A stretch of DNA of 64,000 nt from assembly GCF_014876185.1 (NCBI RefSeq), contig NZ_JADALJ010000001.1:3969001-4033000 (forward strand), in the 5' to 3' direction. The notes beneath the pieces are model-generated. The model was not told the origin of the DNA, did not search any database, and was given only the letters and a program-made list of their open reading frames with translations. Origin of the DNA: Rufibacter sp. LB8 (GTDB lineage: Bacteria; Bacteroidota; Bacteroidia; Cytophagales; Hymenobacteraceae). Position 1 is the first letter of the stretch. The number at the start of each line of letters is the position of its first letter. Below, piece by piece: positions 8,317-63,223 of this stretch. The translations under genes were made by a program, and so were the position numbers.

Positions 8317-8370
8317 AATAGTCCCGTTTTCGGGCTCATTTCCAGAAATGAGCCCGAAAACGGGACTATT
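8317..8370. repeat. Family-P palindrome, copy 1 (perfect 25-bp arms)
   Basis: A perfect palindrome with 25-base arms and a CCAG loop, 25 bases after the moxR stop. The core is CCGTTTTCGGGCTCATTT with its complement. Pairing extends outward through AATAGT/ACTATT, so the flanks match as well. No strong T-run follows. Confidence 0.9.
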
Positions 8371-8550
8371 TTATTTAACATGAACTTGATTAGGGGAGAG
8401 AAATCATGGCCTCCATCCTGGTCTCTCGCCCTTGTTGTTATCACCAACAAGCAAGATAACATCAGCCATCAAGATTGACGGCCCCAAGGACGTCTATTAA
8501 ATCGGCTTTTAACCTGGCGCCTAACAGCTTCAAAGTACTGTAAATAAAAA

Positions 8551-8574
8551 AGCACTCCAGAAGAGTGCTCTTTT
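8551..8574 (-). terminator. Rho-independent terminator of the LTxxQ protein
   Basis: The stem AGCACTC/GAGTGCT (8551-8557 and 8563-8569) has a 5-base loop and is preceded on the plus strand by an A-run, which reads as a T-run for minus-strand transcripts. It lies about 30 bases beyond the stop of the gene at 8601-8936. Confidence 0.75.
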
Positions 8575-8600
8575 GATCTAACCTATCTGTATGAAAATTT

Positions 8601-8936
8601 TTATTTGATGAAAGTGCCTTTGCTGGCCACGTAAGCCTCTTGCTGCGCGGGCTTCAATAACTGCAGCACCGCCGTCTCAAAACGCTCGTTGATCTCTGCC
8701 ACAAACGTAGGCAGCATGTCAGCAGAGGCGACGGTTTGGGCGTCTTTCAGGTCTTGGGTCTTGGTTTTCTCCAGAGCTTTCAATTTTATGTACTGAGACT
8801 CCGTCAAGGCCAACGCCTGAATCAAAGCACGGTCAACAGAAGAACCTTTGCCCTTGGCCGCTGGACCTGCCTGCGCAGTGAATGCACCTGCTGCTACAGT
8901 GAAGAAGAATATGAGGGCGAAGGCTACCTTTTTCAT
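8601..8936 (-). CDS. Small secreted LTxxQ-motif protein (Spy/CpxP-like)
   Basis: From the ATG at 8936 the product is 111 residues with a clear signal peptide (MKKVAFALIFFFTVAAG...AQAG). The ATG at 8981 adds 15 residues ahead of the signal peptide and looks wrong. The mature part is helical and charged, and contains LTESQ in the context ALALTESQYIKLKALEKTK. This resembles the LTxxQ motif of Spy/CpxP periplasmic chaperones, which bind unfolded proteins under envelope stress. The family assignment rests on this one short motif and on size, so it is tentative. The gene is monocistronic, with its own terminator at 8551-8574. Confidence 0.7.
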   Translation of the reverse strand: MKKVAFALIFFFTVAAGAFTAQAGPAAKGKGSSVDRALIQALALTESQYIKLKALEKTKTQDLKDAQTVASADMLPTFVAEINERFETAVLQLLKPAQQEAYVASKGTFIK

Positions 8937-9127
8937 GCGTTTGTGCTTTTCTGCGTGATTGATGATACAAATATAGAGCACGAAATCAGGCCCAAATCTG
9001 ATTTTAGACCACTTCGCCCAAACACAAGTTTAACCTATTTCTTTACTCGTTTAAGGACACGCTGCTCAGATGAATAGGTTAAATCACCCGATGAATCCTA
9101 GTCCAACCATAGTTTAGTGCTATTGGC

Positions 9128-9173
9128 TTTTCCGTTTTCGGGCTCATTTCCAGAAATGAGCCCGAAAACGGAA
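9128..9173. repeat. Family-P palindrome, copy 2 (perfect)
   Basis: TTTCCGTTTTCGGGCTCATTT pairs perfectly with its complement around CCAG. This is the consensus form. It lies 163 bases beyond the stop of the minus-strand lipoprotein gene. Confidence 0.9.
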
Positions 9174-9181
9174 ATCCTTTA

Positions 9182-9211
9182 AAAAGAAAAAGCCCGCCAA
9201 TTGTGGCGGGC
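9182..9211 (-). terminator. Terminator of the TonB receptor/lipoprotein operon
   Basis: The hairpin GCCCGCCA/TGGCGGGC (9192-9211) with an ATTG loop is preceded on the plus strand by a run of A residues, giving a U-tract for leftward transcripts. It lies about 125 bases past the operon's last stop codon. Confidence 0.75.
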
Positions 9212-9335
9212 CCTCTGCGCATGAGAGACTACTTCATGGGCAAAGTAATTGTCGCGTCGTTAGTTCTCACCCATAATGACCGACAATATTTCTTTAATGA
9301 TGCAAGGTTGGATAGAATCCTGTAGGCAATTGGGT

Positions 9336-10703
9336 TTAGTAATCAGTGTTTTTCGGGTCCCAGTTGGCCCAGCCCGCGGTCCAGTCCTGGCCATTGGCGA
9401 AAGCGCCTATGTTGGTGCCGGTGCTGGTGAAGAAGGCGGGCAAGCCCGTGAAAGACGCACCAGTCAGCAGTTGAGCGCCAACCGTGAAGTTAGGAGCGCC
9501 TGCCTGCGTGAAAGAACCGGCAATGCCCAGGTCACTGTTGTTGGCGACTACCATGTTGTTCTTACCGGCGGCATTGAACCAGGTGGCCACGTCATAGGTG
9601 CTGCCAGATTCTTTGGTAAGCGCATTGGCGGCAATGGTGCCAGCTATATAAGTGTTCTGGATTTTAAGCGTACCGGCCGTGGCGTTGGCCTGAGATTTGG
9701 TGCCGTCTAGCAATAAGCCCACTGGCCAGCCCGCAAACAGCGAGTTGTGGATGGAGATGTTGCTGTTTCTTCTGATGTGCATGGCGCGCTTGAAGTTGGT
9801 GTTGAACGTGGTGTTGCCGGTAGCATTTGGTCCGAACAAGCTCACGTTAGAAAACACCGCCGATGTCTTGGGCGTGTTGTCAGAACCCTGGGCGTCACCG
9901 TCAGACTCAAAACCGTTGGAACCAGAAGCATCTGCCACGTTGGGGTCAGAGATACCCAGCAAATACTGGAAGTTGCCCGAAAAACCATTGTCTGTATCAA
10001 ACATATCATCCACGGTTTTGTAGGCAATCAGGTACTTGGCGTTCACCGTACCGCCAAACATTTCATAAGAGTCATCGCCGCAGAAAGATACCTGCACGTG
10101 GTCAATCTGGGTGCCACTGCCCACGCCGCCCAAAGTCAGGCCGTTGATTTCATTGTCTGGCTGAAAGGCAATACCCGGAAACTCAATGCGCACGTAGCTC
10201 AGTACGCCTGAGTTGTCTGCCGCAGTGGTTCCGCCGTAGGCGCGGTCTACGCCACCTTCAATCTTGGCATTGGCGCTGGGCAGGTTGGTAGGCGCGGCGC
10301 CCAAGATGATGATGCCGCCCCAGTCACCGGCGTTGCGGCTGCCTTTGGGTTGGTTAGACGTGAAGACAATTGGAGCCTGGGCAGTGCCTTGGGCCATGAT
10401 CCTCGCGCCGCGTTCAATCACTAGCGTGGCCATAGATGTTTTATCGCCTTTGATAATGGTGCCCGGCTGAATGGTGAGGGTGGCACCGGGCTTCACGTAC
10501 ACAAAGCCTTTCAACAGGTACTTTTTGTTGGCCATAAAGGTGACGTTTTCCTCAGAGGAACCTTCCACGGTAACTACGCCGCTGGCTTCAGTCATAGTGA
10601 ATTGTTCGCCGGTGGCGGTTTCTACCGCGTCATCGTCATCTGAGCAGGAGAAGCCGGCAAAGGTGAGCGCGAACAGGAAGGCAAGTTGTTGTAATCTTTT
10701 CAT
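9336..10703 (-). CDS. Surface/periplasmic lipoprotein, beta-helix type, partner of TonB receptor
   Basis: 455 residues with a lipoprotein signal (lipobox AGFSC). SDDDD directly after the Cys resembles the acidic surface-export signal of Bacteroidota lipoproteins. The body holds short beta-strand repeats such as KGFVYVKPGATLTIQPGTIIKG and later SNISIHNSLFAGWPVGLLLDG, fitting a right-handed beta-helix. Asp/Asn-rich loops (DDMFDTDNGFSG, FESDGDAQGSD) could bind metal or glycan. It lies 45 bases downstream of the TonB receptor on the same strand and shares its terminator, so it is probably the substrate-binding partner of that receptor. The ligand is unknown. Proteins of this layout are widespread and usually uncharacterised. 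Confidence 0.8.
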   Translation of the reverse strand: MKRLQQLAFLFALTFAGFSCSDDDDAVETATGEQFTMTEASGVVTVEGSSEENVTFMANKKYLLKGFVYVKPGATLTIQPGTIIKGDKTSMATLVIERGARIMAQGTAQAPIVFTSNQPKGSRNAGDWGGIIILGAAPTNLPSANAKIEGGVDRAYGGTTAADNSGVLSYVRIEFPGIAFQPDNEINGLTLGGVGSGTQIDHVQVSFCGDDSYEMFGGTVNAKYLIAYKTVDDMFDTDNGFSGNFQYLLGISDPNVADASGSNGFESDGDAQGSDNTPKTSAVFSNVSLFGPNATGNTTFNTNFKRAMHIRRNSNISIHNSLFAGWPVGLLLDGTKSQANATAGTLKIQNTYIAGTIAANALTKESGSTYDVATWFNAAGKNNMVVANNSDLGIAGSFTQAGAPNFTVGAQLLTGASFTGLPAFFTSTGTNIGAFANGQDWTAGWANWDPKNTDY

Positions 10704-10748
10704 GTCGTTTTACTTTAAAATTTGGTTGTTTAAATCTGCGTTGGTTGG

Positions 10749-13553: not shown

Positions 13554-13575
13554 TCGGTTGTGATTAGTCTCGCTG

Positions 13576-13583
13576 CAAAAGTA
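13576..13583 (-). promoter_or_regulatory. TANNTTTG element upstream of TonB receptor operon
   Basis: TACTTTTG on the minus strand matches the Bacteroidota -7 consensus and sits just upstream of the receptor start at 13553. No clear -33 TTTG was found at 17-20 bases, so it is a partial match. Confidence 0.4.
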
Positions 13584-13679
13584 GAGCGGCTGTTTAACCC
13601 CATGATTACCTCCTTGTTACTCTATTGTTAAGGAGCAGTGCGCTGTGTTACGGTTGTGTTAAGCGGCTTGGCAGTAAGT

Positions 13680-13719
13680 GCGTTTTCAGGCTCTGGAATG
13701 GAAATGGAGCCGAAAACGG
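13680..13719. repeat. Family-P palindrome, copy 3 (degenerate)
   Basis: GCGTTTTCAGGCTC ... GGAGCCGAAAACGG around an altered loop. It is recognisable but imperfect, and lies in the divergent gap upstream of two operons. Confidence 0.6.
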
Positions 13720-13785
13720 ACTACCCCCAACCCCTCCTAGGACAGGAGGGGAGTTTTTTGGATGCGGGGAGCAGCAGAAAGCCAT

Positions 13786-14070
13786 GCGTGGGAGACAAGG
13801 CGATGCCTGGTCTCTACAAGTACGAACCTGTTTTTACCTCCATTTCCAAAATAGAGCCTAGAAACGTAATTGGCGGAGACACTCTTAGGAGCTGCGCACA
13901 CTACGAGGTCTTTTGAGCAACAGCAGTCGGAACCTTCACCGTAGAGACAAGGCAGTGCCTGGTCTCTACAACCGGCACACGTATTGCCCAGTTTTGCTTC
14001 CATTTACAATCCAGAACACGAAAACGCAATTGGCGCAGACCTCACAGGTTTCCAAAATCTGTGAGGTCTT
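13786..14070. repeat. Imperfect tandem duplication with GTAGAGAC palindromes
   Basis: The unit [GAGACAAGGC..TGCCTGGTCTCTAC - spacer - AATTGGCG.AGAC - GAGGTCTTTTGAGCA] occurs twice, at about 13790-13920 and 13941-14075, with diverged spacers. The second unit contains a clean palindrome at 13941-13969 and a GACCTCACAG/CTGTGAGGTC hairpin at about 14038-14068. The last hairpin matches a sequence type also seen at 40728-40758. Confidence 0.65.
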
Positions 14071-14558
14071 TTGAGCAGGCGGCACTGCTAATGACCGAAA
14101 ACGCAGACTGCCTTTAAATCCACATCTTTTCCAGCCTTTCCACCGAGCGCCTCGCGGGTTGGCCTTGCATGGCTAGGGCTATGAAACAAAGAACAGAAAT
14201 GGCCAAGACGGGCAGTGCGAGAGGGGAAGGCGGGGCCTCGCGGCCGTGAGCGCTCGGATCCATAATATGGAAAAGGCTGTCTTGTAAAACTCAGGATGCA
14301 GCGAAATTTTGGAAGGAAAGCAAACTGCGTGCACAATAACAGCTACTTGAACCGCAGTATAGGTCGTTGGTGAGAACACCAACAACGGCGGAATACAGCC
14401 GAAATAATCTTCGTTAGATCCTTCGACTACGCTCCGGATGACCATTTCTATAGTCATCAATTCCTCCCCATCCCTAACTATCCCAAAGGAAAGCCACTAA
14501 CCAAAGGCCAATACTGTGAATAATGACAGAAATCATGGGGCGGCCCACTTTTGTGTTG

Positions 14559-14566
14559 TACCTTTG
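14559..14566 (+). promoter_or_regulatory. TANNTTTG element at ccmB
   Basis: TACCTTTG matches the Bacteroidota -7 element and ends 16 bases before the GTG proposed as the ccmB start. It would be inside the coding sequence if the ATG at 14523 were used, which argues for the GTG. No good -33 partner was found. Confidence 0.4.
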
Positions 14567-14582
14567 CGCAAAACCGAAAAAC

Positions 14583-15251
14583 GTGCTGCTGAAAGAGGTT
14601 ATCTACTTGATGCAAAAGGATTTTGTGCTGGAATGGCGGCAGAAGTATGCTTTTAACGGCATGCTGCTGTACGTGGGCAGCACGGTCTTCATCTGCTACC
14701 TCAGCTTCAGCCTGCGGTTTGGCGGACTGGAGGTGCCGGTCTGGAACGCGCTGTACTGGATCATTCTGCTGTTCACGGCGGTGAATGCCATTGCCAAAGG
14801 CTTCGCGCAGGAGAGCCGCGGACGGTTGCTCTACTATTACAGTGTGGTGAGTCCGCAGGGGGTGATTGTGGCGAAGATGCTCTACAACGCCGCGCTCATG
14901 CTGGTGCTGGCGCTGTTGTGTTTCGGGTTTTACGCGGTAGTGATTGGAAATCCGGTGCAAGATGTGCCCATGTTTCTGCTCACCATTGTGCTGGGCGCTA
15001 TTGGGTTCGCCTCATCGCTGACCATGATTTCGGGCATAGCGGCCAAAGCGGCGAACACGGGAACCTTGATGGCAGTGCTGAGTTTCCCGGTGATGGTGCC
15101 CATGCTGCTGATGCTGATGAAGATGTCCAAAAACGCCATTGACGGCCTGGACCCCAGCGTGAGTGTAGACGAGGCGCTTACCTTGCTGGCCATCAACATG
15201 ATAGTGGTAACGGTGTCTTACATCTTGTTCCCCTACCTGTGGCGAAGCTAA
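14583..15251 (+). CDS. ccmB: Heme exporter protein B (CcmB)
   Basis: The membrane subunit of the CcmAB transporter that drives release of holo-CcmE in system I cytochrome c maturation, in the inner membrane. From the GTG at 14583 the product is 222 residues and begins VLLKEVIYLMQKDFVLEWRQ, matching the usual CcmB N-terminus and length. The ATG at 14523 adds a 20-residue leader that overlaps a promoter-like TACCTTTG. Six hydrophobic segments are visible, with the conserved region AKGFAQESRGRLLYYYSVVSPQ after the second or third. It is followed by ccmC after 148 bases. No ccmA lies next to it, so the ATPase must be encoded elsewhere. Confidence 0.88.
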   Translation: MLLKEVIYLMQKDFVLEWRQKYAFNGMLLYVGSTVFICYLSFSLRFGGLEVPVWNALYWIILLFTAVNAIAKGFAQESRGRLLYYYSVVSPQGVIVAKMLYNAALMLVLALLCFGFYAVVIGNPVQDVPMFLLTIVLGAIGFASSLTMISGIAAKAANTGTLMAVLSFPVMVPMLLMLMKMSKNAIDGLDPSVSVDEALTLLAINMIVVTVSYILFPYLWRS

Positions 15252-15399
15252 ATATAGTGGGCAATTGTGCGTTGGTAAAAGGTAAAAGTCAAACCCTCAA
15301 TTATCATCCTGAAAGGAACTTTAGGGCGAATTAGAAAACCGATTGAAATAAAAGAAAGTCCTTTAACCAGACTTCGACTGAAATAATAAATAAAAAAGC

Positions 15400-16315: not shown

Positions 16316-16316
16316 A

Positions 16317-16357
16317 CCTGTTTTCGGGCTCATTTCCAGAAACGAGGCCGAAAACGG
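16317..16357. repeat. Family-P palindrome, copy 4
   Basis: CCTGTTTTCGGGCTC with a right arm GAGGCCGAAAACGG around CCAG. The right arm carries the GGCC variant while the left arm has consensus GGGC, leaving a mismatch. It starts directly after the ccmD-like stop, inside the ccm cluster. Confidence 0.8.
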
Positions 16358-16455
16358 AAATGCTGCCTACCTTTGCAGAAATGCAGCGCCTCAGGATTTA
16401 ATTTTTTAGAAGTGTTGTTGACTAGGCGGCGCAAACCGCCAAAGCGTTCAAAACC

Positions 16456-16881: not shown

Positions 16882-16884
16882 AAT

Positions 16885-17025: not shown

Positions 17026-17032
17026 ATCTGAA

Positions 17033-19703: not shown

Positions 19704-19743
19704 CCGTTTTCGGGCTCATTTCTGGAAATGAAGCCGAAAACGG
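19704..19743. repeat. Family-P palindrome, copy 5 (CTGG orientation)
   Basis: CCGTTTTCGGGCTCATTT, loop CTGG, AAATGAAGCCGAAAACGG. The loop is the reverse complement of CCAG, so this copy is inserted in the opposite orientation to most. It lies about 73 bases after the ccmF stop. Confidence 0.85.
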
Positions 19744-19874: not shown

Positions 19875-20057
19875 GTAGGGACAGGTCGCGACCTGTCCTA
19901 ACGCATATCTGATACCGCGCATGCAGATAATGTAGGGGCGTATGGCATACGCCCTTACGCATTTCTGAAAACGCATTTCCGCTTATCCTTTGTTGCATTC
20001 CTTACGGTAACAGAGCTGCCAAGGCCACTGCGTAGGGCGTATGCCATACGCCCCTAC
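19875..20057. repeat. Three family-G palindromes (GTAGGG...CCCTAC)
   Basis: GTAGGGACAGGTCGCGACCTGTCCTAAC at 19875-19902, then GTAGGGGCGTATG/GCATACGCCCTTAC at 19932-19958 and GTAGGGCGTATG/CATACGCCCCTAC at 20032-20057. Each is a near-perfect palindrome with its own core but shared ends. The first two are followed by ACGCATATCTGAT or ACGCATTTCTGAA. Related copies occur near 37051, 43055, 43161 and 63233. Confidence 0.75.
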
Positions 20058-20125: not shown

Positions 20126-20959
20126 ATGAAGATAGGCATCATTGGCACGGGCAACGTAGGTACGCATCTGGTGAAAGGTTTGGCCGCGGCTGGGCTGGAA
20201 GTGGTCGTCATTTACAGCCGAACGCTGGCCCATGCCCAGGAAGCAGTTCAATTTGCGCCAACCGCCAGAGCCGTAGATTTTCTTGATTTCACTGCTTGCC
20301 CAAGGGCTGACTTGTACTTGCTGGCCGTGCCAGACCAGGTGCTGCCAGAAATTGTTGCCAAAGCCCTTTTCCCGGAAGGGACGGTGGTGGCGCATACGTC
20401 GGGGACGCAGCCAATGGAGGTGTTGCAGCCTTTGAAGAACGTGCAGGTGGGTGTATTTTATCCGTTGCAGACCTTTAGTAAGGAGAAAGACGTAGACTGG
20501 CCGCGTATTCCTATCTGTTGGGAAGCCTCCTCGCCGGAGGCGGGGGAGATGCTGCAGCAAGTGGCCGTTGCTTTAAGCCGGAATGTGCTGGAAATGGCCG
20601 GTCCAGCGCGGCGGCAGTTGCATGTGGCGGCGGTGTTCGCGTGTAATTTCACCAACCATCTGTGGGGCGTGGCCCAGGAAATCCTGCAAACCGCCAATCT
20701 GCCTGTGACCCTGTTGCAGCCTTTGGTAGAAGAAACAGTGGCTAAAGCGTTTCAATTTCCGCCGTTTGCGGTGCAGACCGGCCCGGCCCGGCGCAATGAC
20801 CAGACCACGCTGCAGGCGCATGCCAACCTGCTGCAAGACTTTCCGGAGTATACCGCGTTATACCAGGTGCTCACTGCCAGCATTCAGCGGCAGGCTGGTT
20901 TTGCCCCCGTTTCAGGTTTAGAGGCCAAAAACAGAAACCCAGGCAAGCCCGCGCAATAG
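20126..20959 (+). CDS. Rossmann-fold DUF2520 protein (NADP-oxidoreductase-like)
   Basis: From the ATG at 20126 the product is 277 residues, opening with a dinucleotide-binding fingerprint MKIGIIGTGNVGTHLVKGL (GxGxxG) directly at the N-terminus. The upstream start at 20087 adds a Cys-rich leader with no meaning. The N-terminal Rossmann domain (about 1-120) resembles ketopantoate/F420-dependent reductases. The C-terminal helical domain (about 130-260, containing AGPARRQLHVAAVFACNFTNHLW) is typical of DUF2520. The substrate is unknown. It is followed by the ferredoxin gene, which has its own promoter. Confidence 0.85.
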   Translation: MKIGIIGTGNVGTHLVKGLAAAGLEVVVIYSRTLAHAQEAVQFAPTARAVDFLDFTACPRADLYLLAVPDQVLPEIVAKALFPEGTVVAHTSGTQPMEVLQPLKNVQVGVFYPLQTFSKEKDVDWPRIPICWEASSPEAGEMLQQVAVALSRNVLEMAGPARRQLHVAAVFACNFTNHLWGVAQEILQTANLPVTLLQPLVEETVAKAFQFPPFAVQTGPARRNDQTTLQAHANLLQDFPEYTALYQVLTASIQRQAGFAPVSGLEAKNRNPGKPAQ

Positions 20960-21441: not shown

Positions 21442-21442
21442 G

Positions 21443-21820: not shown

Positions 21821-21838
21821 CAAGCCAGCACGTGTAGG

Positions 21839-21885
21839 CGCGTTTTCGGGCTCATTTTCAGAAATGAGCCCGAAAACGCGTTTTT
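21839..21885 (+). terminator. Family-P palindrome, copy 6, with T-run (iscX terminator)
   Basis: CGCGTTTTCGGGCTCATT and its complement around TTCAG, followed at once by TTTTT. This copy has all parts of a Rho-independent terminator. The outer bases are CGC/GCG instead of CCG/CGG and still pair. Confidence 0.85.
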
Positions 21886-21906
21886 CTGTTTAAACTTTTT
21901 AAGGCC

Positions 21907-23701: not shown

Positions 23702-23740
23702 CCGTTTTCGGGCCCATTATATGAAATGAAGCCGAAAACG
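23702..23740. repeat. Family-P palindrome, copy 7 (degenerate loop)
   Basis: CCGTTTTCGGGCCCATT ... AAATGAAGCCGAAAACG with the loop replaced by an ATAT-like sequence. It begins 28 bases after the prenyltransferase stop. A TATCTTTG element (23754-23761) follows and may serve porZ. Confidence 0.75.
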
Positions 23741-23917
23741 CGTTGAAACTGTGTATCTTTGGGTAAGCAGCTAAGGGATTTGTTTTGCAGGGAAAATGCA
23801 TTTCAGGGCTTGGCCAAAAGTGCTTTTTGCAGGACTGTAGGATGCTTGAAAGAAACATGGTCTGATTGCTGCCGGGCTTAGGGCCGAGTTTGAAATTAAC
23901 ATAGTAATAGTGCTCTC

Positions 23918-27104: not shown

Positions 27105-27150
27105 TTTCCGTTTTCGGGCTCATTTCCAGAAACGGGCCCGAAAACGGAAA
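27105..27150. repeat. Family-P palindrome, copy 8
   Basis: TTTCCGTTTTCGGGCTC / CGGGCCCGAAAACGGAAA around ATTTCCAGAAA. It starts 14 bases after the recO stop. Confidence 0.85.
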
Positions 27151-30011: not shown

Positions 30012-30431
30012 ATGGCTGGAAACGTAACGTTCACCATGATCAAACCAGATGCCGTGCAGGACAACAACATTGGCGGTATCACCAAAATGATGGAAGAGGC
30101 CGGCTTTAGAGTGGTGGCCATGAAAAAGACCCGCCTGTCTGAGGAGCGCGCCGGCGCCTTCTACGAGGTGCACAAAGAGCGTCCCTTCTACGGCGACCTG
30201 GTGAAATACATGAGCTCTGGCCCTATTGTGGCTATGATTCTGGAGAAAGACAACGCGGTGGTAGACTTCCGTAAACTGATTGGTGCTACCAACCCGGCCC
30301 AGGCCGAGGAGGGAACCATCAGAAAGGTTTACGCCAAGTCTGTGGAGGCCAATGCCGTACACGGCTCTGACTCAGATGAGAACGCCCAGATTGAAGGCGA
30401 ATTCTTCTTCTCTGCTGACGAGCGTTTCTAG
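30012..30431 (+). CDS. ndk: Nucleoside-diphosphate kinase
   Basis: 139 residues, a cytoplasmic enzyme that moves the gamma-phosphate between nucleoside triphosphates and diphosphates through a phospho-His. Conserved parts: TFMIKPDAV near the start, the [16 protein letters not shown] loop, and the active-site NAVHGSDS (His near 116). The length is standard. It is a single gene with a terminator 27 bases downstream. The DNA just after the stop contains half of a family-P palindrome fused to the terminator stem. Confidence 0.96.
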
Positions 30432-30488
30432 GCTCTGTTTTCTAAATGAAGCCCAAAACGCCTGGCCCAACGGTCAGGCGTTTTTTTT
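30431..30488 (+). terminator. ndk terminator with half of a family-P palindrome
   Basis: ACGCCTG (30458-30464) and CAGGCGT (30475-30481) form the stem, followed by T8. Bases 30441-30460 (TCTAAATGAAGCCCAAAACG) match the right arm of family P, whose outer AACG is shared with the terminator stem. The left arm is missing. Confidence 0.85.
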
Positions 30489-30500: not shown

Positions 30501-30546
30501 TTTCCGTTTTCGGCCTCGTTTTCAGAATTGAGCCCGAAAACAGGAA
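30501..30546. repeat. Family-P palindrome, copy 9
   Basis: TTTCCGTTTTCGGCCTCG left arm with a right arm TTGAGCCCGAAAAC, around TTTTCAGAA. The left arm is of the GGCC type and the right of the GCCC type, leaving mismatches. Confidence 0.75.
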
Positions 30547-32720: not shown

Positions 32721-32766
32721 TTTCCGTTTTTGGCCTCATTTCCAGAAACGAGGCCAAAAACGGAAA
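32721..32766. repeat. Family-P palindrome, copy 10 (T-A at position 8)
   Basis: CCGTTTTTGGCCTC pairs fully with GAGGCCAAAAACGG. Relative to consensus, position 8 changed C to T with G to A opposite, and position 11 G to C with C to G opposite, so both changes are compensated. Outer TTT/AAA also pairs. Confidence 0.9.
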
Positions 32767-33508: not shown

Positions 33509-33550
33509 GCGTTTTTGGCGCTGTTTCCAGAATTGAGCCCGAAAACGGAA
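33509..33550. repeat. Family-P palindrome, copy 11 (diverged left arm)
   Basis: GCGTTTTTGGCGCTG ... TTGAGCCCGAAAACGG around TTTCCAGAA. The left arm is diverged. It lies 63 bases past the pectate lyase stop. Confidence 0.7.
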
Positions 33551-34883: not shown

Positions 34884-34929
34884 TTTCCGTTTTCGGGCTC
34901 GTTTTCAGAAATGGGCCCGAAAACGGAAA
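34884..34929. repeat. Family-P palindrome, copy 12
   Basis: TTTCCGTTTTCGGGCTCG / TGGGCCCGAAAACGGAAA around TTTTCAGAAA. It begins 3 bases past the stop of the minus-strand flippase-like gene. Confidence 0.85.
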
Positions 34930-36828: not shown

Positions 36829-36869
36829 TCCGTTTTCGGCTTCATTTCTGGAAATGAGCGGTAAAACGG
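36829..36869. repeat. Family-P palindrome, copy 13 (CTGG orientation, degenerate)
   Basis: TCCGTTTTCGGCTTCATTT, loop CTGG, AAATGAGCGGTAAAACGG. It lies upstream of scpA. Confidence 0.7.
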
Positions 36870-36949
36870 TGGAATTGTTCATTGTTCTTTGTTGATTGTT
36901 TTTTTGAAAGTAATCAAAACCAGCAAAATAGTTAGTCGCTTGCTACGTG

Positions 36950-37077
36950 CAGATTCTCCCCTTGAGGATTGCTCAAACGAGAGTTTGAGGCAGCGAGCGA
37001 AGCTCTGTAGAGGGGTGTTTACTTCTGCTGATTCACGTTTTTTTGATAATGTAGGGGCGTATCGCAAACGCCCGCAC
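36950..37077. repeat. Compound element: CTCCCCTTGAGG unit plus family-G palindrome (copy 1)
   Basis: A 70-base unit beginning ATTCTCCCCTTGAGGATTGC and ending GGGGTGTTTA contains the inner hairpin CAAACGAGAGTTTG. A GTAGGGGCGTAT...CGCCCGCACGCAT palindrome follows at 37051-37077. The same unit-then-palindrome order recurs at 42958-43082. Confidence 0.7.
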
Positions 37078-37086
37078 GCATTCCTG

Positions 37087-37345
37087 ATTTTGACGCATTT
37101 CGTCCCCCTTTGAAGGGGGTAGGGGGATGATTTACTCGTGCTGATTACTTTTATGGCGCGGAAGTTACTTCCGTGACTTACTTTTAGGCTGTTCTTTAAG
37201 TCACGGAAGTAACTTCCGCGCCATAGAGGAGTGATTACAAACTCTCCCGAGATTCACTTTTACTAGTCGCAGTTTTTAGCCGATTACTTCTCCATCTGAC
37301 TTTTTCATCCCCCAACCCCCTTCAAAGGGGGACGATATGCGTCAG
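37087..37345. repeat. Nested inverted structure with a perfect 28-bp-arm palindrome
   Basis: The C-rich element GTCCCCCTTTGAAGGGGG at about 37089-37128 and its inverted copy at about 37300-37340 enclose a palindrome at 37153-37224. The palindrome's arms (ATGGCGCGGAAGTTACTTCC... and complement) are 28 bases and match exactly. A third C-rich copy is at about 47440-47480. Confidence 0.8.
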
Positions 37346-37514: not shown

Positions 37515-37560
37515 TTCCCGTTTTTGGCTCCGTTTCCAGAAATGAGCCCGAAAACGGGAA
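37515..37560. repeat. Family-P palindrome, copy 14
   Basis: TTCCCGTTTTTGGCTC / GAGCCCGAAAACGGGAA around TTTCCAGAAA. Outer TTCCCG/CGGGAA pairs. It lies 78 bases past the stop of the 37638-38453 lipoprotein gene. Confidence 0.8.
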
Positions 37561-38453: not shown

Positions 38454-38784
38454 ATAAAATTATAGGATAAGGTTATAGTGCTATAAATGTAGCTGTAAAA
38501 GCCAAATTATATATTGTTTCTTGAATATTATTTCTTCCGCCAGACTTGCTGCACAATCAGCCAATTTTCCGTTTTCGGCTTCATTTCTGAAAATGAGCCC
38601 CAAAACGCAATACACTACCCGCAAAACCAGTTACCAATCCATAGTCTATTAGCCTGCGGTGGGCACAAAAGTTCACGCTAAGAAAAAATCTGTAAATTTG
38701 CCTTTTGTCTGGCGGTAACTTCGTATAGTAAAAAACTTTCAGTACGTTACGCTGTTGCAACCGTATCACCCAACCCGCACCCCT
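38454..38784. other. Divergent intergenic region (lipoprotein / dxs)
   Basis: 331 bases between divergent starts. It contains family-P copy 15 (38567-38608), one of the few in a divergent promoter region, and a TAAATTTG element (38693-38700) that could drive dxs. Confidence 0.5.
38567..38608. repeat. Family-P palindrome, copy 15 (reverse orientation)
   Basis: TTCCGTTTTCGGCTTCATTT, loop CTGA, AAATGAGCCCCAAAACG. Partly mismatched. Confidence 0.7.
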
Positions 38785-40701: not shown

Positions 40702-40727
40702 GCTTGATTTGATATTGAAGTGAGCGA

Positions 40728-40758
40728 GGCCTCACAGGTTTATAAAACCTGTGAGGCC
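40728..40758 (+). repeat. GGCCTCACAGGTTT hairpin after dxs
   Basis: GGCCTCACAGGTTT (40728-40741) and its exact complement (40745-40758) with a 3-base loop, then TTTCT. It may act as a weak terminator. The same hairpin type is at about 14038-14068. Confidence 0.7.
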
Positions 40759-40804
40759 TTTCTGTTTTCGGGCTCGTTTTGGTAAATGAGGCCGAAAACG
40801 GGAA
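40759..40804. repeat. Family-P palindrome, copy 16
   Basis: TTTCTGTTTTCGGGCTCG ... GAGGCCGAAAACGGGAA with an altered TTTTGGTAAA loop. It abuts the preceding hairpin directly. Confidence 0.75.
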
Positions 40805-41972: not shown

Positions 41973-42013
41973 GCTGTTTTTGCCCTCCATTCCGTAAACG
42001 AAGCCTAAAACGC
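41973..42013. repeat. Family-P palindrome, copy 17 (strongly degenerate)
   Basis: GCTGTTTTTGCCCTCCATT ... AAACGAAGCCTAAAACGC. The arms still pair in part, but the loop is lost. Confidence 0.5.
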
Positions 42014-42836: not shown

Positions 42837-43375
42837 ACTTGCTTCGGATTTTTTGCTTTTACTTCTTTAAGACTCTATCTCCCTCTCGTTCTATCTCTCA
42901 ATTTGTCATCTTGAAAAGATTTTGTGGGCGAACTAGACAGGCCGTAATTCAACGCAAATTCTCCCCTTGAGGATTGCCCAAACGCGAGTTTGAAGCAACG
43001 AGCGTAGCTCTGTCTTGGGGTGTTTATACAGGTGAAAAACTATTCTAGACAAATGTAGGGACAGGTCGCGACCTGTCCTCACGTATTCCTGATATGCGCG
43101 CATTTCTGCGGGGTGCAACTTTTTCTTTGTCTAGCGAGTTTGCTTGCTTCGGCCACCGTTCAGGACAGGTCGCGACCTGTCCCTACAAACCAAAATAGTT
43201 ATTTTCTATTTCGGCCTGCCGCCTTTTCATTCATTTATTCCGCCGCATCTTCCGTTATGAAACACCTTGACCATCAGTAAATTTGGTTAGATATAGGGTT
43301 TTTGCTATTTAATTACTAGTATTAACCGCAATTTCATGCACTATCCATTTATCCCCCAAAACGTTACGCGGTCTT
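42837..43375. other. Repeat island B (no genes)
   Basis: 540 bases holding a TGTCATCTTGAAAAGATTTTG-type element (about 42905), the second copy of the compound CTCCCCTTGAGG unit and two family-G palindromes (43055-43082 and 43161-43186, opposite orientations with the same ACAGGTCGCGACCTGT core). Confidence 0.7.
42958..43186. repeat. Compound element copy 2 and paired family-G palindromes
   Basis: ATTCTCCCCTTGAGGATTGC... (42958-43027) aligns with 36950-37020 over about 70 bases. GTAGGGACAGGTCGCGACCTGTCCTC follows at 43055-43082, then a tail ACGTATTCCTGATATGCGCG. A third palindrome, CAGGACAGGTCGCGACCTGTCCCTAC, ends the island. Confidence 0.75.
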
Positions 43376-43862: not shown

Positions 43863-43914
43863 GGCGTTTTAGGGCTCGTTTTCAGAAATGAGCCCTAAAA
43901 CGCCTTTTCTTTTT
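43863..43914 (+). terminator. Family-P palindrome, copy 18, with T-run (A-T at position 8)
   Basis: GGCGTTTTAGGGCTC pairs fully with GAGCCCTAAAACGCC around GTTTTCAGAAAT, followed by TTTTCTTTTT. Position 8 is A with T opposite, and outer GGCG/CGCC is also compensated. It lies 22 bases past the preceding stop. Confidence 0.88.
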
Positions 43915-46973: not shown

Positions 46974-47035
46974 AAAAACCCTTCCGTTTTCGGGCTCATT
47001 TCTGAAAATGAGCCCGAAAACGGAAGGGTTTTTTT
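46974..47035 (+). terminator. Family-P palindrome, copy 19, with T-run
   Basis: Arms of 28 bases (AAAAACCCTTCCGTTTTCGG... and complement) around CTGA, ending in a T-run. It is 14 bases past the preceding stop. Perfect pairing extends well beyond the core, and the loop is in reverse orientation. Confidence 0.9.
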
Positions 47036-47382: not shown

Positions 47383-47592
47383 GGAGGGTTAGCTACTCCC
47401 AACAGCATGGTTTTTTGGATCAAGGATGACTTAGTACGCATTTCGTCCCCCTTTGAAGGGGGTAGGGGGATGATTTTTCTGTCCTTACTTGTCCCCCCTG
47501 ACAAGCCAACCAATTAAGGTAGTTTCAGGCCGGATTCTTTCGGTCTGTCAGGGGACAGCCCGAGGGATATAATTACTTTTTTATCTTTCCCT

Positions 47593-47807: not shown

Positions 47808-47861
47808 AAAAAACCTGTTTTGGGGCTCATTTTCAGAAATGAGCCCCAAAACAGGTTTTTT
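47808..47861. terminator. Family-P palindrome, copy 20, with A/T-runs (G-C at position 8)
   Basis: AAAAAACCTGTTTTGGGGCT... pairs perfectly with its complement around TCAG over 25 bases. Position 8 is G with C opposite, and outer CCTG/CAGG is compensated. It is 20 bases past the stop of the minus-strand receiver gene, with T6 for either direction. Confidence 0.9.
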
Positions 47862-54470: not shown

Positions 54471-54491
54471 TCCGCTGATTTGCCTGAATTG

Positions 54492-54643: not shown

Positions 54644-54686
54644 TTCCGTTTTTGGCCTCGTTTTCAGAAATGAGCCCGAAAACAGG
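54644..54686. repeat. Family-P palindrome, copy 21 (hybrid arms)
   Basis: The left arm TTCCGTTTTTGGCCTCG is of the GGCC/T type; the right arm ATGAGCCCGAAAACAGG is consensus. Two stem mismatches result. Confidence 0.8.
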
Positions 54687-54831: not shown

Positions 54832-54877
54832 TTTCCGTTTTCGGGCCCAATTCCAGAAATGAGCCCAAAAACGGAAA
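54832..54877. repeat. Family-P palindrome, copy 22
   Basis: TTTCCGTTTTCGGGCCCA ... GAGCCCAAAAACGGAAA around TTCCAGAAA. Outer TTTCCG/CGGAAA pairs. Confidence 0.8.
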
Positions 54878-59800: not shown

Positions 59801-62307
59801 CCACGGTAGACCAGGGCCAGTCTGTTCAAATCACGGGTTCCTTCAGCAACTTGCAAGGGACACTTCTGCCTGAACGCGGAGCGGTAGGCCTATACCAAGG
59901 CAGTTACCCAAGTGACGGCGTGTTTAAAATGGCCCTGGAGGTAACTTCTACCAACGGCCGCTCCGGCACCTTCAAAGGCACCTTGCCTGCTAACCAAAGC
60001 GTGAAGGAACTGTTGAGTACCGGTATGTTCTATGTGTTGATCAAAACCGATGCCTTCCCGGCCGGTGAATTGAGAACCCAAATCTACAGAGCCACCAACC
60101 AGGGACCTGCCGTGCCGGTGTTCGCCACCCATAATGGAACCGATACGTACCCAATCCGCAACATCAAAGCGGTGTTCCCGGTGAGATGGAACGCGGCCAA
60201 AGACCCTGAGGCCAACGCCGTGACCTACACGTACCAGTTAGCCAAAGACGAGCAGTTCACCCAGCTGTTAGTGGAAGAAGCCACAGCTACGGCTTTGAAC
60301 TACACCGCTCAGCAGGAGAAGTGGTTTGCCTTATTAGGCGAAGAGAATACTGCCACTTTCTACCACCGTGTGATTGCCTCAGATGGTAAAAACGTAACAG
60401 TGGGAGCCACGCAGGCCTTAAAGCTGGAGAAAAACGCAGACCCTGTTACAGGCCCAGTAAATGTGCCCGCGCCTAACTTTGTGTATGACTGCAAAACCAA
60501 AGACGCAGACGGTAAGTGTATTGCCGCCTTCGGGGAAATGCCTTCTACCCAAGGCCACGGTGTGGTGATTGACAGAAAAGGCAGAACCTGGTCTGCGGCC
60601 TATGGCCTTGGTATTAGAATTCATGCCCCTAATGGAGACGTGGTGAATCTGGCCAACGCGCCGGGTATGGTGGTGGGCAGCAATGCCAGCGGAAGCCATA
60701 TCTCGTCCCTTACCTTAAATGGTGCCACCCATGCCGTGAGCAACGTGCGTGGTCTTGGTTTAGCCCATGACGGAAACATTCTGGTGGTGGTGAGAGACCG
60801 CGTGATCTACAAACTGTCTGTGGAGACCGGCCAGCCTTTGGCCAGTTGGGACGGCACCGCTACCGTAGGTACCGCCAGCTTCACCAACCCAACCTCTACC
60901 GCAGACGGAAAAGTGTACGTAGGTTCTGTTTCTACCAATGCCAACTGGCTCTTGAAGCAAAGCACCACAGAGCCAACCAAGTTTGAGCTATTGGCCAACG
61001 GCTTCACGTTGCCAGAACGCGCAGGGACTATCCGTTCGTCTATGATTTCGCCGGAAGGCAACAACATCTACGTACCTAGCTCCAGCTTGAACCGTCTGTT
61101 CAATTTCCACAGCGCCAACGGTTTGACAGCCTGGAACTTGGTGGAGACCATTAACATGCCTAACCCAGCCTCTAACTCAGTGTATGCGGCGGGCAAAAAC
61201 AAGGTATACGTAGTGGCCAACACCAGCGGAAACACACCACCCACCCTCATGATGCGTGATGACACAGACCCTGCCCAGAAAATCTCCTGGACCCTTCCAT
61301 TGCCAGAGGTAGTTGGAAATGACCTGCGCGGTCTGTGGCTCTCAAAAGGCGAAGACACCTTGTACACCACGGCGGCCAACGGGTTCATCTACCGTTACAT
61401 CATTCCTGCCACCGGTGGAACCGAGGTGCCAAGAGTACTGGAAGACATGACTATTGGCCAGGCCCGGCCGGTGAACACCAATGGGGTGGCCACTCAGGCT
61501 GGTAAATATGTGCGGGTGAAAGGCGTGGTGAACGCCACCAACCTGTCAAGAGCCTACCTGGACCTGGCGCTTACCAGCGGCGGACAAGGGATTCAAGTAT
61601 ACAAAGTGAGCCGCGGCGAGATGACGTATACCCCAACCCTTGGCGACAGCATAGCCGCCATTGGGGTGTTGAGACAGTACAACGGCCAACTTAGACTGGA
61701 AGTAGACTCTGTGCGCCTTATTCAGGCAGGCAAGCCGTTGATTTCACCGTCTGTGGTGACCGCAGCCTCAGAAGAACTGGAGTCTTACGTGGTGCAGTTC
61801 AGCAATGCTACGTTGGTAAACCCAGCGCAGTGGACCACCGGCCAAGGCTACCACGGCTTTGAAGTACAGCTGCAGACTGAAGGTGGAATTGTGCCCATGT
61901 TCATTCCGGCTACTTCTGACCTGTACAACCTGCCAGCGCCAAACGGACGTATCCATTTCACAGGCGTGGTGCAGCAGTTCAAAGCCGAGGCACCGTACAC
62001 CTCTGGGTATTATGTAGTACCGTTGGGTGCCGCTACCTTAACCGGCGTGCGTACAGACACTGAGGCGCAGCAAGTAGCCGTGTACCCAGTGCCAACCTCC
62101 GGAAGCCTGCAGGTGCAATTGCCAGAGTCACTTAGAAAAGGAACCCGCCTGCAGGTAACTGACCTGGCCGGGAAAACCATCTTGGTGAAGGAAACCAAAA
62201 CCCACGACGGAGTAACGCTTGATTTAAGCAACCAGGCAGCCGGCGTTTATCTGGTGGTGTTGCACACGCCAAACGGCAAAGTGGTGCGCCGCGTAGTAAA
62301 ACAGTAA
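56848..62307 (+). CDS. Multidomain T9SS cargo protein: phosphodiester glycosidase, metallophosphoesterase, CHRD, propeller, OB, sorting domain
   Basis: 1819 residues, signal peptide (KKSVLPLKVLFLAGWLLCCTQPLFAQ). Order: NAGPA-type phosphodiester glycosidase domain (about 50-305; YAVVNGGFF, PRTGIGRTADNKVILMVVEGR, MNFDGGGSS); golvesin-C-like beta-sandwich (about 307-437); two Ig-like domains; calcineurin-like metallophosphoesterase (about 654-896; ISDLNSSFG, GGDMIAG, MGNHDAA, IGHLPLYG, SGHHHAYYPG); CHRD-like domain (about 985-1081, AFPAGELRTQIYR); an Fn/Ig-like segment; propeller (about 1204-1525); OB-fold-like (about 1531-1730); type A sorting domain (about 1738-1819). It probably acts on phosphodiester-linked sugars or phosphate esters at the cell surface. 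The propeller, OB and sorting modules match the two preceding proteins. Confidence 0.87.
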   Translation: MKKSVLPLKVLFLAGWLLCCTQPLFAQLNLTWTKPAELNAGLPPSVQVFYSNTPVNGAVMKTYYALIDLNDPNLEFKTGYIPGVKKTPNQWAAAETDPVYAVVNGGFFNTTTNVALGTAVQDGQVLAINAKDNRTRSVFGVLPGNIADIAWIYHVGAQNTMYQYPNPNTAINQSPSATFPAGAQLWPASTALGAGPVIVHNGQLRITKDEEAMWASGDNREPRTGIGRTADNKVILMVVEGRNPGISSGVTIPEMAQIFLGIGAHEAMNFDGGGSSALAIQGKNTILPSDAGEQRAVPTALLVKRRTHVYDTENGVVYFERGGAWTESANTGFHGPSKSRVIETGDGSKFATYKLAGINPGRYELKAWWVAANNRSTNTPYTIYRSGAASPVTVRVDQTANGSKFNVIGTYDLGPNDSIVISNDAQGQFVVADALSLIKVGESLPAISFAGNQDRGEAIENQNSTFNVTLASPNSGFTLSKLRIFKKVNGGAEAQVGDEIALNGVYTHTYPFTYNGSDPVGANVSFRFELEDSFGRTVSRTFDYTVVTLTQVVFKGGAAEGTHPQLRPLSLELSLETRQPAVNVKELKVFKSVNGGSEQQVGTTVALAAQPQQDYTFTTTLSEAVNSKVNLRFELTDANNVKASRTYQATVAPPRGDFRLAVISDLNSSFGSVTYEWQVDSIMQRIPRLWRPDMVVAGGDMIAGQSATLTATQVAAMWAGFDAKVAQPLKAANIPFAFTMGNHDAALALDRTEAEKYWKKPENMPSWHPVDMTNYPFYFSYKPTPTSDIFFVSWEASSATISASQLEWVRAQFTSPEARAAKFRFLIGHLPLYGAAAQYNIAGNVLNNATALQAMMEELDVHTYISGHHHAYYPGKHGSVEFLNAGAAGSGPRAYMGLDEVAPNSVTLMDIFVEQDTIIYTTYEIKEQIASNMKITDEKRLPEIMNGVNGYMIRRDIAVSGAGVGSLSSYNKERSRASAATGTVTTVDQGQSVQITGSFSNLQGTLLPERGAVGLYQGSYPSDGVFKMALEVTSTNGRSGTFKGTLPANQSVKELLSTGMFYVLIKTDAFPAGELRTQIYRATNQGPAVPVFATHNGTDTYPIRNIKAVFPVRWNAAKDPEANAVTYTYQLAKDEQFTQLLVEEATATALNYTAQQEKWFALLGEENTATFYHRVIASDGKNVTVGATQALKLEKNADPVTGPVNVPAPNFVYDCKTKDADGKCIAAFGEMPSTQGHGVVIDRKGRTWSAAYGLGIRIHAPNGDVVNLANAPGMVVGSNASGSHISSLTLNGATHAVSNVRGLGLAHDGNILVVVRDRVIYKLSVETGQPLASWDGTATVGTASFTNPTSTADGKVYVGSVSTNANWLLKQSTTEPTKFELLANGFTLPERAGTIRSSMISPEGNNIYVPSSSLNRLFNFHSANGLTAWNLVETINMPNPASNSVYAAGKNKVYVVANTSGNTPPTLMMRDDTDPAQKISWTLPLPEVVGNDLRGLWLSKGEDTLYTTAANGFIYRYIIPATGGTEVPRVLEDMTIGQARPVNTNGVATQAGKYVRVKGVVNATNLSRAYLDLALTSGGQGIQVYKVSRGEMTYTPTLGDSIAAIGVLRQYNGQLRLEVDSVRLIQAGKPLISPSVVTAASEELESYVVQFSNATLVNPAQWTTGQGYHGFEVQLQTEGGIVPMFIPATSDLYNLPAPNGRIHFTGVVQQFKAEAPYTSGYYVVPLGAATLTGVRTDTEAQQVAVYPVPTSGSLQVQLPESLRKGTRLQVTDLAGKTILVKETKTHDGVTLDLSNQAAGVYLVVLHTPNGKVVRRVVKQ

Positions 62308-62325
62308 GCTTTATTCATTCCATAC

Positions 62326-62352
62326 AAAAGGGGACCCACAGGGTCCCCTTTT
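62326..62352 (+). terminator. Terminator of T9SS cargo gene 3
   Basis: AAAAGGGGACCC / GGGTCCCCTTTT with an ACA loop, then TATTTTT. Eighteen bases past the stop. Confidence 0.93.
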
Positions 62353-62366
62353 TATTTTTGCCCAGG

Positions 62367-62407
62367 TTCCGTTTTAGGCTCCATTTCCAGAAATGAAGCC
62401 AAAAACG
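62367..62407. repeat. Family-P palindrome, copy 23
   Basis: TTCCGTTTTAGGCTCCATTT, loop CCAG, AAATGAAGCCAAAAACG. Partly mismatched. Confidence 0.75.
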
Positions 62408-62456
62408 TTTGGCTGAAATCGGGCCATTCCAAACCCATAAAACTTTTGCTACTCTT

Positions 62457-62500
62457 CCCGTTTTCGGGCTCTGTTTTTGAAACGAAGCCCAAAACACGGG
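62457..62500. repeat. Family-P palindrome, copy 24
   Basis: CCCGTTTTCGGGCTCTG ... ACGAAGCCCAAAACACGGG with an altered loop (TTTTTGAA). Only 49 bases after copy 23. Confidence 0.75.
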
Positions 62501-62817
62501 TACCTATCCTCAGGTAATTTTCCCTTCTGTTCACCTGCCGTCGGCTTCGTTGAAAATATTTGAGCGCGCGCAAGGAACCACTATTCTGAATTCATGGAAA
62601 ATTTCGGTTTTAAGCCCTTTTAAAGCCGATGAAGAAGTGACGTTTGGCAACGGGAAGGTTTGGCCAGGAAAGTGCCGTAAAAGTGAGCTAATAGCCTTTT
62701 TTGAAAACATATTTCTGTGGGGAAAGAAAGGCCAGCGGTGTTGTGGAGGGAAATGAAGGTAGGGGGCATGCAACCTTCGGGCTGTTACAGGACTCTACTG
62801 TATAAACCCACGCACCC

Positions 62818-63165
62818 ATGAAAGTTCACTACGCCCTTTGCTTGTCAGTTCTGCTTCTTTTTTCTGGGTGCGACCTGGACGATGACCAAAAAGTTTGCAA
62901 CGTCAGCAATCCTACTGAGAACCTGCCCTGGCTTAAAGCCAAAAAGGAAGAGTTGCAGACGTCTATTAATTGCCATTTCATTGATCAGGGTGAGTGGCGT
63001 GGGATAACCGTTTTCATATTTGGGACCTGTTCGCCCCTCATTAGTTCTGTTCTGCTTGTCTATGACTGTGAAGGCAACCTGCTTTGCCCCAGCTCAAGTG
63101 CTGCTTGCCCTACTTTTCAAAGAAATGTGAGGTCGCGCAAAACCATCTGGCGAAACGGGAAATAG
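62818..63165 (+). CDS. Small Cys-rich lipoprotein, unknown function
   Basis: 115 residues with lipobox LLFSGC followed by DLDDD, an acidic surface-export-like signal. The mature part contains ENLPWLKAKKEELQ, a motif frequent in small Bacteroidota lipoproteins of unknown role, and six Cys after the lipid Cys (for example KVCNV, INCHF, GTCSP, YDCEGNLLCPSSSAACP), which could form disulphides. It ends in a basic tail. It stands alone between repeats, with family-P copy 25 beginning 15 bases after the stop. Confidence 0.75.
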   Translation: MKVHYALCLSVLLLFSGCDLDDDQKVCNVSNPTENLPWLKAKKEELQTSINCHFIDQGEWRGITVFIFGTCSPLISSVLLVYDCEGNLLCPSSSAACPTFQRNVRSRKTIWRNGK

Positions 63166-63179
63166 CTGGGTCTGGGGCA

Positions 63180-63223
63180 TTCTGTTTTCGGGCTCATTTC
63201 CAGAAACGAGGCCAAAAACAGAA
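63180..63223. repeat. Family-P palindrome, copy 25 (hybrid arms)
   Basis: TTCTGTTTTCGGGCTC with right arm GAGGCCAAAAACAGAA around ATTTCCAGAAAC. The outer TTCTG/CAGAA pair is compensated relative to TTCCG/CGGAA; the inner part has two mismatches from arm types that do not match. Confidence 0.8.

Follow-up and report, generated by a model that had tools for sequence, protein, structure and literature searches.

The window analysed here is a stretch of 64,000 nucleotides from Rufibacter sp. LB8 (genome G000, positions 3969001-4033000 of its 4.59-Mb contig C1; a second contig, C2, has 155 kb), and it carries many copies of a palindrome of about 40 bases that belongs to a real, genus-wide family, in large part inherited in place. 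Judged from sequence comparison, this palindrome resembles a recognition site for a putative DNA-binding factor more than it does a mobile element or a usual transcription terminator, and the readings as a terminator or as a mobile repetitive extragenic palindromic (REP) element or miniature inverted-repeat transposable element (MITE) are disfavoured. The explanation adopted, with confidence a little short of even, is that these are largely vertically inherited, genus-specific boundary palindromes that would act at the DNA level and co-evolve with a putative trans-acting factor. The purpose of extragenic palindromes such as REPs, selfish or useful, is a long-argued question, and here a family of REP-like appearance can be traced site by site across 16 species.

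Structure and abundance of the palindrome

As for its structure, the palindrome consists of two inverted half-sites of 17-18 nt (in G000, CCGTTTTNGGNNTCRTTT) around a 4-nt loop that on one strand is often CCAG or TCAG. Half-site positions 5-7 and 17-18 are near-invariant, while positions 8, 11, 12 and 15 are variable; one half-site sequence, CCGTTTTCGGGCTCATTT, accounts for 102 of the 612 halves in a 684-kb sample of C1, in which three of the stretches were picked around RAYT genes and one stretch includes 5 kb of N. In this sample, at a score of 18, only 4 half-sites stand alone, against 524 in pairs. Across 30 positions on either side of 305 copies, oriented by the matrix and not by the gene, TTT before and AAA after the palindrome are the only clear enrichments (A at +1 to +3 in 60%, 71% and 52%), with weak preferences for A at -4 and T at +4 (T at +4 and +5 in 49% and 42%). 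The stem extends by at least 5 bp into unique flanks in 24 of 351 copies against 3.9 expected, and by at least 7 bp in 10 against 0.3 expected. Half-sites facing outward (e.g., AACCAAGCCCGAAAACGG-ACTGG-CGTTTTCGGGCTTGG) were also observed in L057 (G000:C1:3300001-3320000), near 1976, 11620 and 14171.

Regarding its abundance, an iterated weight matrix with a threshold score of 14 found 29 copies in the window, between 8324 and 63221, and model-free repeat detection also recovered the family. A sequence-only reading of the window had already reported an abundant palindrome family, with 25 copies; those beyond this number are presumably among the weaker ones (lowest scores 22 to 50). The matrix gave 306 copies in the 684-kb sample (4.47 per 10 kb), which extrapolates to ~2,050 for the chromosome, and just 5 in the entire 155 kb of C2; it gave none in the reversed sample at the same threshold, and 76 loci of other genera (882,750 bases) had none even at score 8. 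Confinement of the copies to one half of the chromosome was considered and rejected, since the sampled stretches show copies throughout and exact copies lie inside the supposed gap.

On the scale of whole genomes, a degenerate pattern (up to two mismatches) occurs at 1,748 places in G000 and 57 to 1,653 times in each of 15 other Rufibacter genomes, with 1,082 in G007, 1,069 in G010, 700 in G011, 125 in G015 and 57 in G009; it is absent from 13 genomes of other genera. The reversed control of this pattern matched none of the 16 Rufibacter genomes and two outgroups once each. With at most three mismatches allowed, a 36-nt pattern had 553 and 527 strand matches in G000 and 0 to 3 matches in each of the 15 other genomes. 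Finally, a covariance model, trained on sequences selected partly for pairing, gave at least 117 matches in each of the 16 Rufibacter genomes, with 150 candidates scored per genome, and matched only one of 28 outgroup genomes (2 matches). The copies across the chromosome and in all 16 genomes rule out that the family is restricted to the window, one of the outcomes that the sequence-only reading had named as fatal to it.

The family does not appear to have been described: no Rfam entry reaches its gathering score in the window, and no description was found in the open-licence literature, judged from titles and abstract openings. In 140, 140 and 120 kb from three genomes of other genera in the taxonomic family, no hairpin family is shared to a comparable extent. 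The earlier remark that no described family has this sequence agrees with these searches. A scan of a genome contig collection with an exact 34-mer gave no match, the genome itself or its near relatives possibly lying outside that collection.

Placement relative to genes

Of the 306 sampled copies, 295 (8 of them at stretch ends) are not centred in a called gene; 11 are, and 6 of these lie well inside a sizeable gene, in a sample of which 78% was called coding. In the window, the earlier statement that no copy lies inside a gene is nearly right, the exception among the 29 being a weak copy (20895..20934, plus strand, score 32.9) inside the end of the called open reading frame 20126-20959. The closeness to stop codons on both strands noted there also holds: 62 of 242 copies lie within 0-10 nt past a stop. 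In the window, the copy at 34887..34926 (plus strand, score 62.8) lies 5 nt beyond the stop codon of a gene on the minus strand. Both loop orientations occur, as had been noted, with no clear bias to gene direction (tandem gaps 75 vs 55 and 15 ties, convergent gaps 47 vs 44 and 7 ties); a polarity by replichore was rejected (83 vs 72 and 74 vs 85, Fisher p 0.26).

Occupancy depends on the type and the size of the gap. Convergent gaps hold a copy in 13 of 18 cases at 50-100 nt, 19 of 22 at 100-200 nt and 22 of 26 at 200-400 nt; tandem gaps of 100-200 nt do so in 36 of 76, and divergent gaps in 4 of 19 at 100-200 nt and 17 of 38 at 200-400 nt, many of these copies being near the middle. One such copy, at 38569..38608 (minus strand, score 59.9), lies halfway between two divergent genes, whose called starts are 157 and 176 nt away. 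Gaps shorter than 50 nt have no copy (0 in 105 gaps in G000). Under a rough uniform-per-base model, 71 of 87 convergent gaps are occupied against 43.8 expected, with an under-dispersed variance/mean of 0.51, and the corresponding figures are 117 of 232 against 85.7 for tandem gaps and 38 of 90 against 31.5 for divergent ones. The arrangement would amount to roughly one palindrome per boundary of neighbouring transcription units, provided that promoters leave space for it.

Shared positions and species spellings

The positions of many palindromes are shared among species. For G000 elements within 200 nt of orthologous stop codons, a counterpart is found for 22 of 33 in G007, 20 of 26 in G006, 15 of 20 in G013 and 14 of 18 in G015, and the offset is identical within 5 nt for 11 of 22, 9 of 20, 6 of 15 and 6 of 14 of the shared elements, respectively. 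Same-offset sharing exceeds permutation in all four (p 0.0005 to 0.002; 0.0005 each for G007 and G006); in this comparison, elements of convergent gaps may be counted twice, once per gene, and reversed sequence had 2 matches to the G015 matrix against 40. The protein identity of these four genomes to G000 is 63-88% in three genes. In the window, the copy at 30422..30461 (minus strand, score 36.2) overlaps a stop codon at an identical offset (-10) in G006, G007, G013 and G015, and that at 40762..40801 (minus strand, score 55.4) has a near-identical offset (56-61) in the same four. The copy at 8324..8363 (plus strand, exact consensus, score 69.3), in a convergent gap, has its stem extended by the flanks AATAGTC/GACTATT; the orthologous site in G007 and G013 has self-complementary flanks of another sequence.

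The most complete case is the copy at 16318..16357 (plus strand, score 63.7), 2 nt past a stop. In an alignment of window positions 16316-16455, the outline of the motif is found directly after this stop in all 16 species, degenerate in some; scored with the G000 matrix, the site reaches 12 in only 7 of the 15 relatives. Double-sided changes of paired bases in this alignment number 20 against 9.8 in shuffles, with 0 of 500 shuffles as high; the count is from 15 of the 16 sequences, G008 being left out for an indel, and relatedness can inflate it, with slid controls giving at most 8.

The half-site is spelled differently from species to species. Position 14 is C in 92% of the G000 halves and G in 62% of those of G007, 76% of G013 and 82% of G006; position 8 is T in 88% (G007) and 98% (G013), C or T in G000, and G or A in G006, and in G015 the half-site is degenerate. 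Orthologous copies are more alike than shuffled pairs for G007-G013 (p<0.0005, n=17), G000-G006 (0.0015, n=12) and G000-G007 (0.0055, n=13), with a weak excess for G006-G013 (p 0.04, n=4). In a four-protein tree, with several weakly supported nodes elsewhere, every genome below 500 copies (seven in all) falls in one clade (support 97), which also includes G010 and G011.

Three of the six copies well inside genes, those in folC, polX and comEC, were traced in the 16 genomes by whole-gene scans with a genus matrix. In all 16 species, the homologous 40-mer is the best match within folC, and likewise within polX, and the protein alignments are free of gaps. For comEC the top-scoring match coincides with the homologous place in 9 of 16 species, all 9 scoring at least 14; it is strongest in G007, G013, G001, G006 and G000, where it follows the spelling of each species. 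From these scans the intragenic copies look inherited and not newly inserted, an argument of less force than the stop-codon comparison.

Pairing in the stems

A stem selected in RNA would tolerate G-U over A-C pairs on the sense strand. The tandem gaps of four species provided 157 copies no more than 80 nt from a stop; their stems have 151 G-U and 157 A-C pairs on the sense strand (103 vs 89 in the flanks). The control was a set of 98 T-tailed hairpins, detected in the same sequences with an equal penalty for G-U and A-C, and these have 70 G-U and 12 A-C (p 4e-11). The lack of a G-U over A-C bias, unlike in the T-tailed hairpins, means that the constraint appears to be on DNA, and the palindromes accordingly appear to act in DNA rather than in RNA. 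Within G000, covariation exceeds independence at pair 8/33 (z 7.8), at 5/36 (near-invariant, z 5.6), at 14/27 (z 3.0) and at the outer pairs. Taken over the whole stem, the covariation pattern indicates that the sequence of the arms is itself constrained, pairing being evident mainly where the sequence is free.

Proposed interpretation as DNA boundary sites

Constraint at the DNA level, obligate pairs of half-sites, species dialects and placement near one per boundary fit binding sites for a putative factor; likewise, the persisting positions, the spelling by species and the strand-neutral stems, together with that spacing, point to selection by a trans-acting DNA factor. Such a sequence-specific factor would recognise each half-site and would probably be a protein that binds DNA as a dimer, or one that binds cruciforms; as its preference shifted, the sites would be re-selected in place, giving the dialects. 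The role would most likely lie in separating neighbouring transcription units, and by analogy this separation may be topological, at a boundary of supercoils or of the nucleoid. In E. coli, gyrase-binding REP elements, or bacterial interspersed mosaic elements (BIMEs), are thought to work as such a topological boundary.

A fuller form of this proposal is possible and somewhat doubtful: the copies may be genus-wide DNA boundary marks, one palindromic site for one fast-evolving factor lying between most transcription units, inherited in place for as long as the genus has existed, respelled in concert in each species, and decayed in some (G009 and G015) upon loss or weakening of the factor. As related species range from 57 to 1,748 copies, they offer a natural experiment. 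If the proposal is true, the palindrome would be a genome-wide, dialect-forming motif of a kind different from uptake sequences, Chi, KOPS and RAYT-driven REPs.

Several observations weigh against the boundary-site reading. No protein binding the half-site was found, the factor and the function being inferred. The presence of the element varies: at the gap 21821-21906 it is found in 10 of 16 species. Orthologous copies do not exceed shuffled pairs in likeness for G000-G013 (0.16), G000-G015 (0.23) and G007-G006 (0.33), and at the free positions the likeness is significant only for G007-G013 and G000-G006. Most inner stem pairs in G000 are not clearly above independence, and pairs 15/26 and 12/29 are below it (z -4.3 and -2.9). 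Divergent gaps also hold copies, and the intragenic ones fit a strict boundary role badly. As for the latter, the folC copy scores below 14 in 12 of 16 species (at least 14 in 4) and that of polX in 8 of 16 (at least 14 in the other 8), and protein conservation alone may keep their likeness; in comEC the best match of 7 of the 16 species (L211-L226) is at a second place within the gene, 1,547 nt upstream of the G000 copy, with a score of up to 38. The occupancy counts depend on genes called by an in-house script, at 78% coding, so that some gaps hide genes, and on a rough expectation per base. Finally, a composite repeat found at several loci, described below, suggests some dispersal and counts against a purely in-place history.

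Mobile elements and RAYT genes

The main rival to the binding-site reading, itself rather unlikely, is a selfish, REPIN-like population of hairpins: a putative transposase or HuH nuclease would copy single-stranded hairpins and fill nearly every safe intergenic site, and the dialects would come from one master sequence that spreads, sometimes into old copies. The sequence found in 102 of 612 halves resembles such a master, convergent gaps are highly occupied, C2 has few copies for its size, and the genome does encode RAYT-like genes. According to PMC3733652, REPs lie mainly outside genes, above all in tandem and convergent gaps, and near 3' ends; REPINs, as described in PMC3116915, are REP doublets that form hairpins. 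The Rufibacter palindromes are alike in being abundant, short, mostly intergenic, close to 3' ends and built as hairpin doublets; they differ in having no GTAG or CGTC tag and only TTT/AAA flanks, in showing no link to RAYT, and in combining shared positions with a species-specific spelling.

The sequence-only reading had favoured mobile REP- or MITE-like insertion, and had suggested that a RAYT/Y1 (PF01797) gene flanked by the palindrome be sought. This part found no support. Around 30 RAYT-like loci, found with the models PF01797 and NF047646 and including some weak matches, there are 43 copies in 103,677 bases, or 4.15 per 10 kb, compared with 3.92, 3.22 and 6.13 at three control genes. Neither does the number of RAYT genes follow the number of copies: G007 has 0 over the NCBIfam cut-off (one weak match) and 1,082 copies, G015 has 4 and 125 copies. 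RAYT as the mobiliser was rejected for this lack of association in locus density and across genomes, in a search that could miss a diverged mobiliser. G000 has four RAYT-like genes over the cut-off, three of which were checked along with two further Y1 proteins. One candidate was an IS200-like TnpA at G000:C1:4307271, whose open frame is preceded by a copy at 213 nt and followed by another at 119 nt; the homologous loci in G008 and G001 show only one copy each, which weakens the case for it.

Neither a GTAG nor a CGTC tag was found within 30 positions on either side of 305 copies, and among 350 copies there was no target-site duplication of 8 nt, while duplications of 3 and 5 nt at three boundaries were near shuffled values, except for those of 3 nt beside the palindrome (12 vs 7.1). 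The half-sites as terminal repeats of a longer transposon were rejected, lone half-sites being almost none. The selfish explanation must also account for the positions that G000 has in common with G006, G007, G013 and G015, whose protein identity to it is given above.

Differences in presence and the composite repeat do leave room for past movement. The copy at 21840..21879 (plus strand, score 63.8) is at a site aligned as occupied in 10 of 16 species and without an element in the other 6; at this gap, the one examined for occupied and unoccupied sites, the flanking sequences have diverged too far for a clean insertion to be recognised. The composite, of ~210 bp, is formed by a palindrome, a CCTTCTCCC...GGGAGAAGG.TAGG repeat, a variable middle, the inverted partner of that repeat and a second palindrome, and occurs at L022 12198-12418, L040 13964-14177, L176 15606-15824, L012 14541-14750, L296, L297 and L306, and in G015 at L025 1499-1714. 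These loci were picked by the motif of the second repeat (13 of 44 close pairs, three being one place found twice and one lacking the repeat). The second repeat is rare: 804 kb contain 10 matches, of which 6 lie no more than 90 nt from a palindrome copy, and there are none in the examined stretches of G007, G006 and G015 or in the examined outgroup loci. The copies of the G015 locus follow the G000 spelling, and the locus shares synteny with G000 at an identity of 77-81%.

Other hairpins in the genome carry the tag that the palindromes lack. A count of GTAG-tagged hairpins gave 22 in 804 kb, none in 684 kb of reversed sequence and 2 in 370 kb of other genera, and several surround a Y1 transposase-like gene near G000:C1:1151252; the genome thus has a more REP-like system, distinct from the boundary palindromes, and these hairpins and the Y1 gene are perhaps its own RAYT-REP system. 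Such hairpins (GTAGGGACAGGTCGCGACCTGTCC, GTAGGGGCGTATGGCATACGCCC) were observed in the window at 19875-20057 and 43055-43186, and in L041 (G000:C1:1142001-1162000) at 9198-10215. Two RAYT loci (L228 1376-1399 and L249 1403-1426) have a short hairpin, GTTCGGGAGT/ACTCCCGAAC or GTTCGGGATT/AATCCCGAAC, ~100 nt from the match, and these hairpins are unlike the boundary palindrome family.

Transcript ends

It is improbable that the palindromes serve as RNA hairpins at transcript ends, either as bidirectional terminators or as barriers to 3' exonucleases. Their enrichment right after stop codons and in convergent gaps, their strong inverted repeats and the T-runs of a few copies (e.g., the T-run flank of that at 47815..47854, plus strand, score 61.2) would suit such hairpins, and like intrinsic terminators they lie past stop codons. 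Unlike intrinsic terminators, as a rule they have no U-tract after the stem; their outer flanks, T before and A after, are the reverse of those of a terminator; their stems are strand-neutral, without the G-U preference of T-tailed hairpins; their loops show no clear bias to gene direction; and one sequence recurs across the genome, also between divergent genes and inside genes. The earlier statement that termination at T-runs does not explain most copies is borne out, while the idea of co-option at 3' ends proves too narrow, given the copies between divergent genes, many in mid-gap, and the lack of a sign of RNA selection in the stems. Separate, conserved T-tailed hairpins exist alongside the palindromes; in a convergent gap, the copy at 27108..27147 (plus strand, score 63.1) adjoins, in the alignment, a hairpin resembling an intrinsic terminator.

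Uptake sequences and chromosome motifs

DNA uptake sequences (DUS) work as single sites. More improbable still is that the palindrome is an uptake-signal-like motif, biased DNA uptake or recombination favouring the DNA that bears it so that copies accumulate and are respelled together, since solitary half-sites are very rare, nearly all sampled copies (295 of 306) lie outside called genes, and a spacing near one per boundary is not expected of a drive by uptake. The parallel lies in dialects, chromosomal abundance and shared positions: according to PMC3630211, the DUS of Neisseriaceae occur in very large numbers in each genome and are spelled alike within a species or clade, and the Rufibacter palindromes resemble them in copy number and in spelling by species or clade. 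Unlike DUS, the palindromes are obligate pairs of inverted 17-18-nt half-sites, almost wholly intergenic, with about one per boundary.

As for chromosome-organisation motifs, matS, KOPS and Noc sites are short recognition sites spread over the chromosome, a likeness that the palindromes share. They differ from them in having about two thousand copies, in being set by gene boundaries and in lacking replichore polarity.

Other copies in the window

Among the remaining copies of the window, that at 9132..9171 (plus strand, score 69.3) has the exact consensus, and that at 32724..32763 (plus strand, 63.3) lies in a convergent gap. At 13680..13719 (minus strand, 41.6) the loop is divergent; weak copies are found at 13828..13867 (plus strand, 34.6) and 41974..42013 (minus strand, 38.2), and the weakest at 13988..14027 (plus strand, 22.0). 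Further copies on the plus strand are at 30504..30543 (62.6), 33509..33548 (50.4), 37518..37557 (64.3), 43864..43903 (55.4), 54646..54685 (64.5), 54835..54874 (61.0), 62369..62408 (52.8) and 63182..63221 (60.7), and on the minus strand at 19704..19743 (68.6), 23702..23741 (47.6), 36830..36869 (54.8), 46984..47023 (68.3) and 62458..62497 (49.8).

Other features of the sequence

L011 (G000:C1:1700001-1720000) was considered as an island of low G+C (apparent value 0.365) and rejected, 5,000 masked bases explaining the value. In the window, positions 1-6490 of the minus strand encode a long, repetitive protein of secreted type, a 1219-aa part of which has no Pfam match; its frame appears to change near 2831, possibly by a frameshift. 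Another palindrome, of the type AGACCTCACAGGTTT...AAATCTGTGAGGTCTTT, occurs at 14037-14071 and 40727-40761, and a similar one is present in a locus of G021, from another genus (L031 1135-1169). Further repeats of the window lie at 36949-37133, 42954-43026 and 47436-47476; for example, ACGCATTTCGTCCCCCTTTGAAGGGGGTAGGGGGATGATTT is identical at 37093 and 47436.

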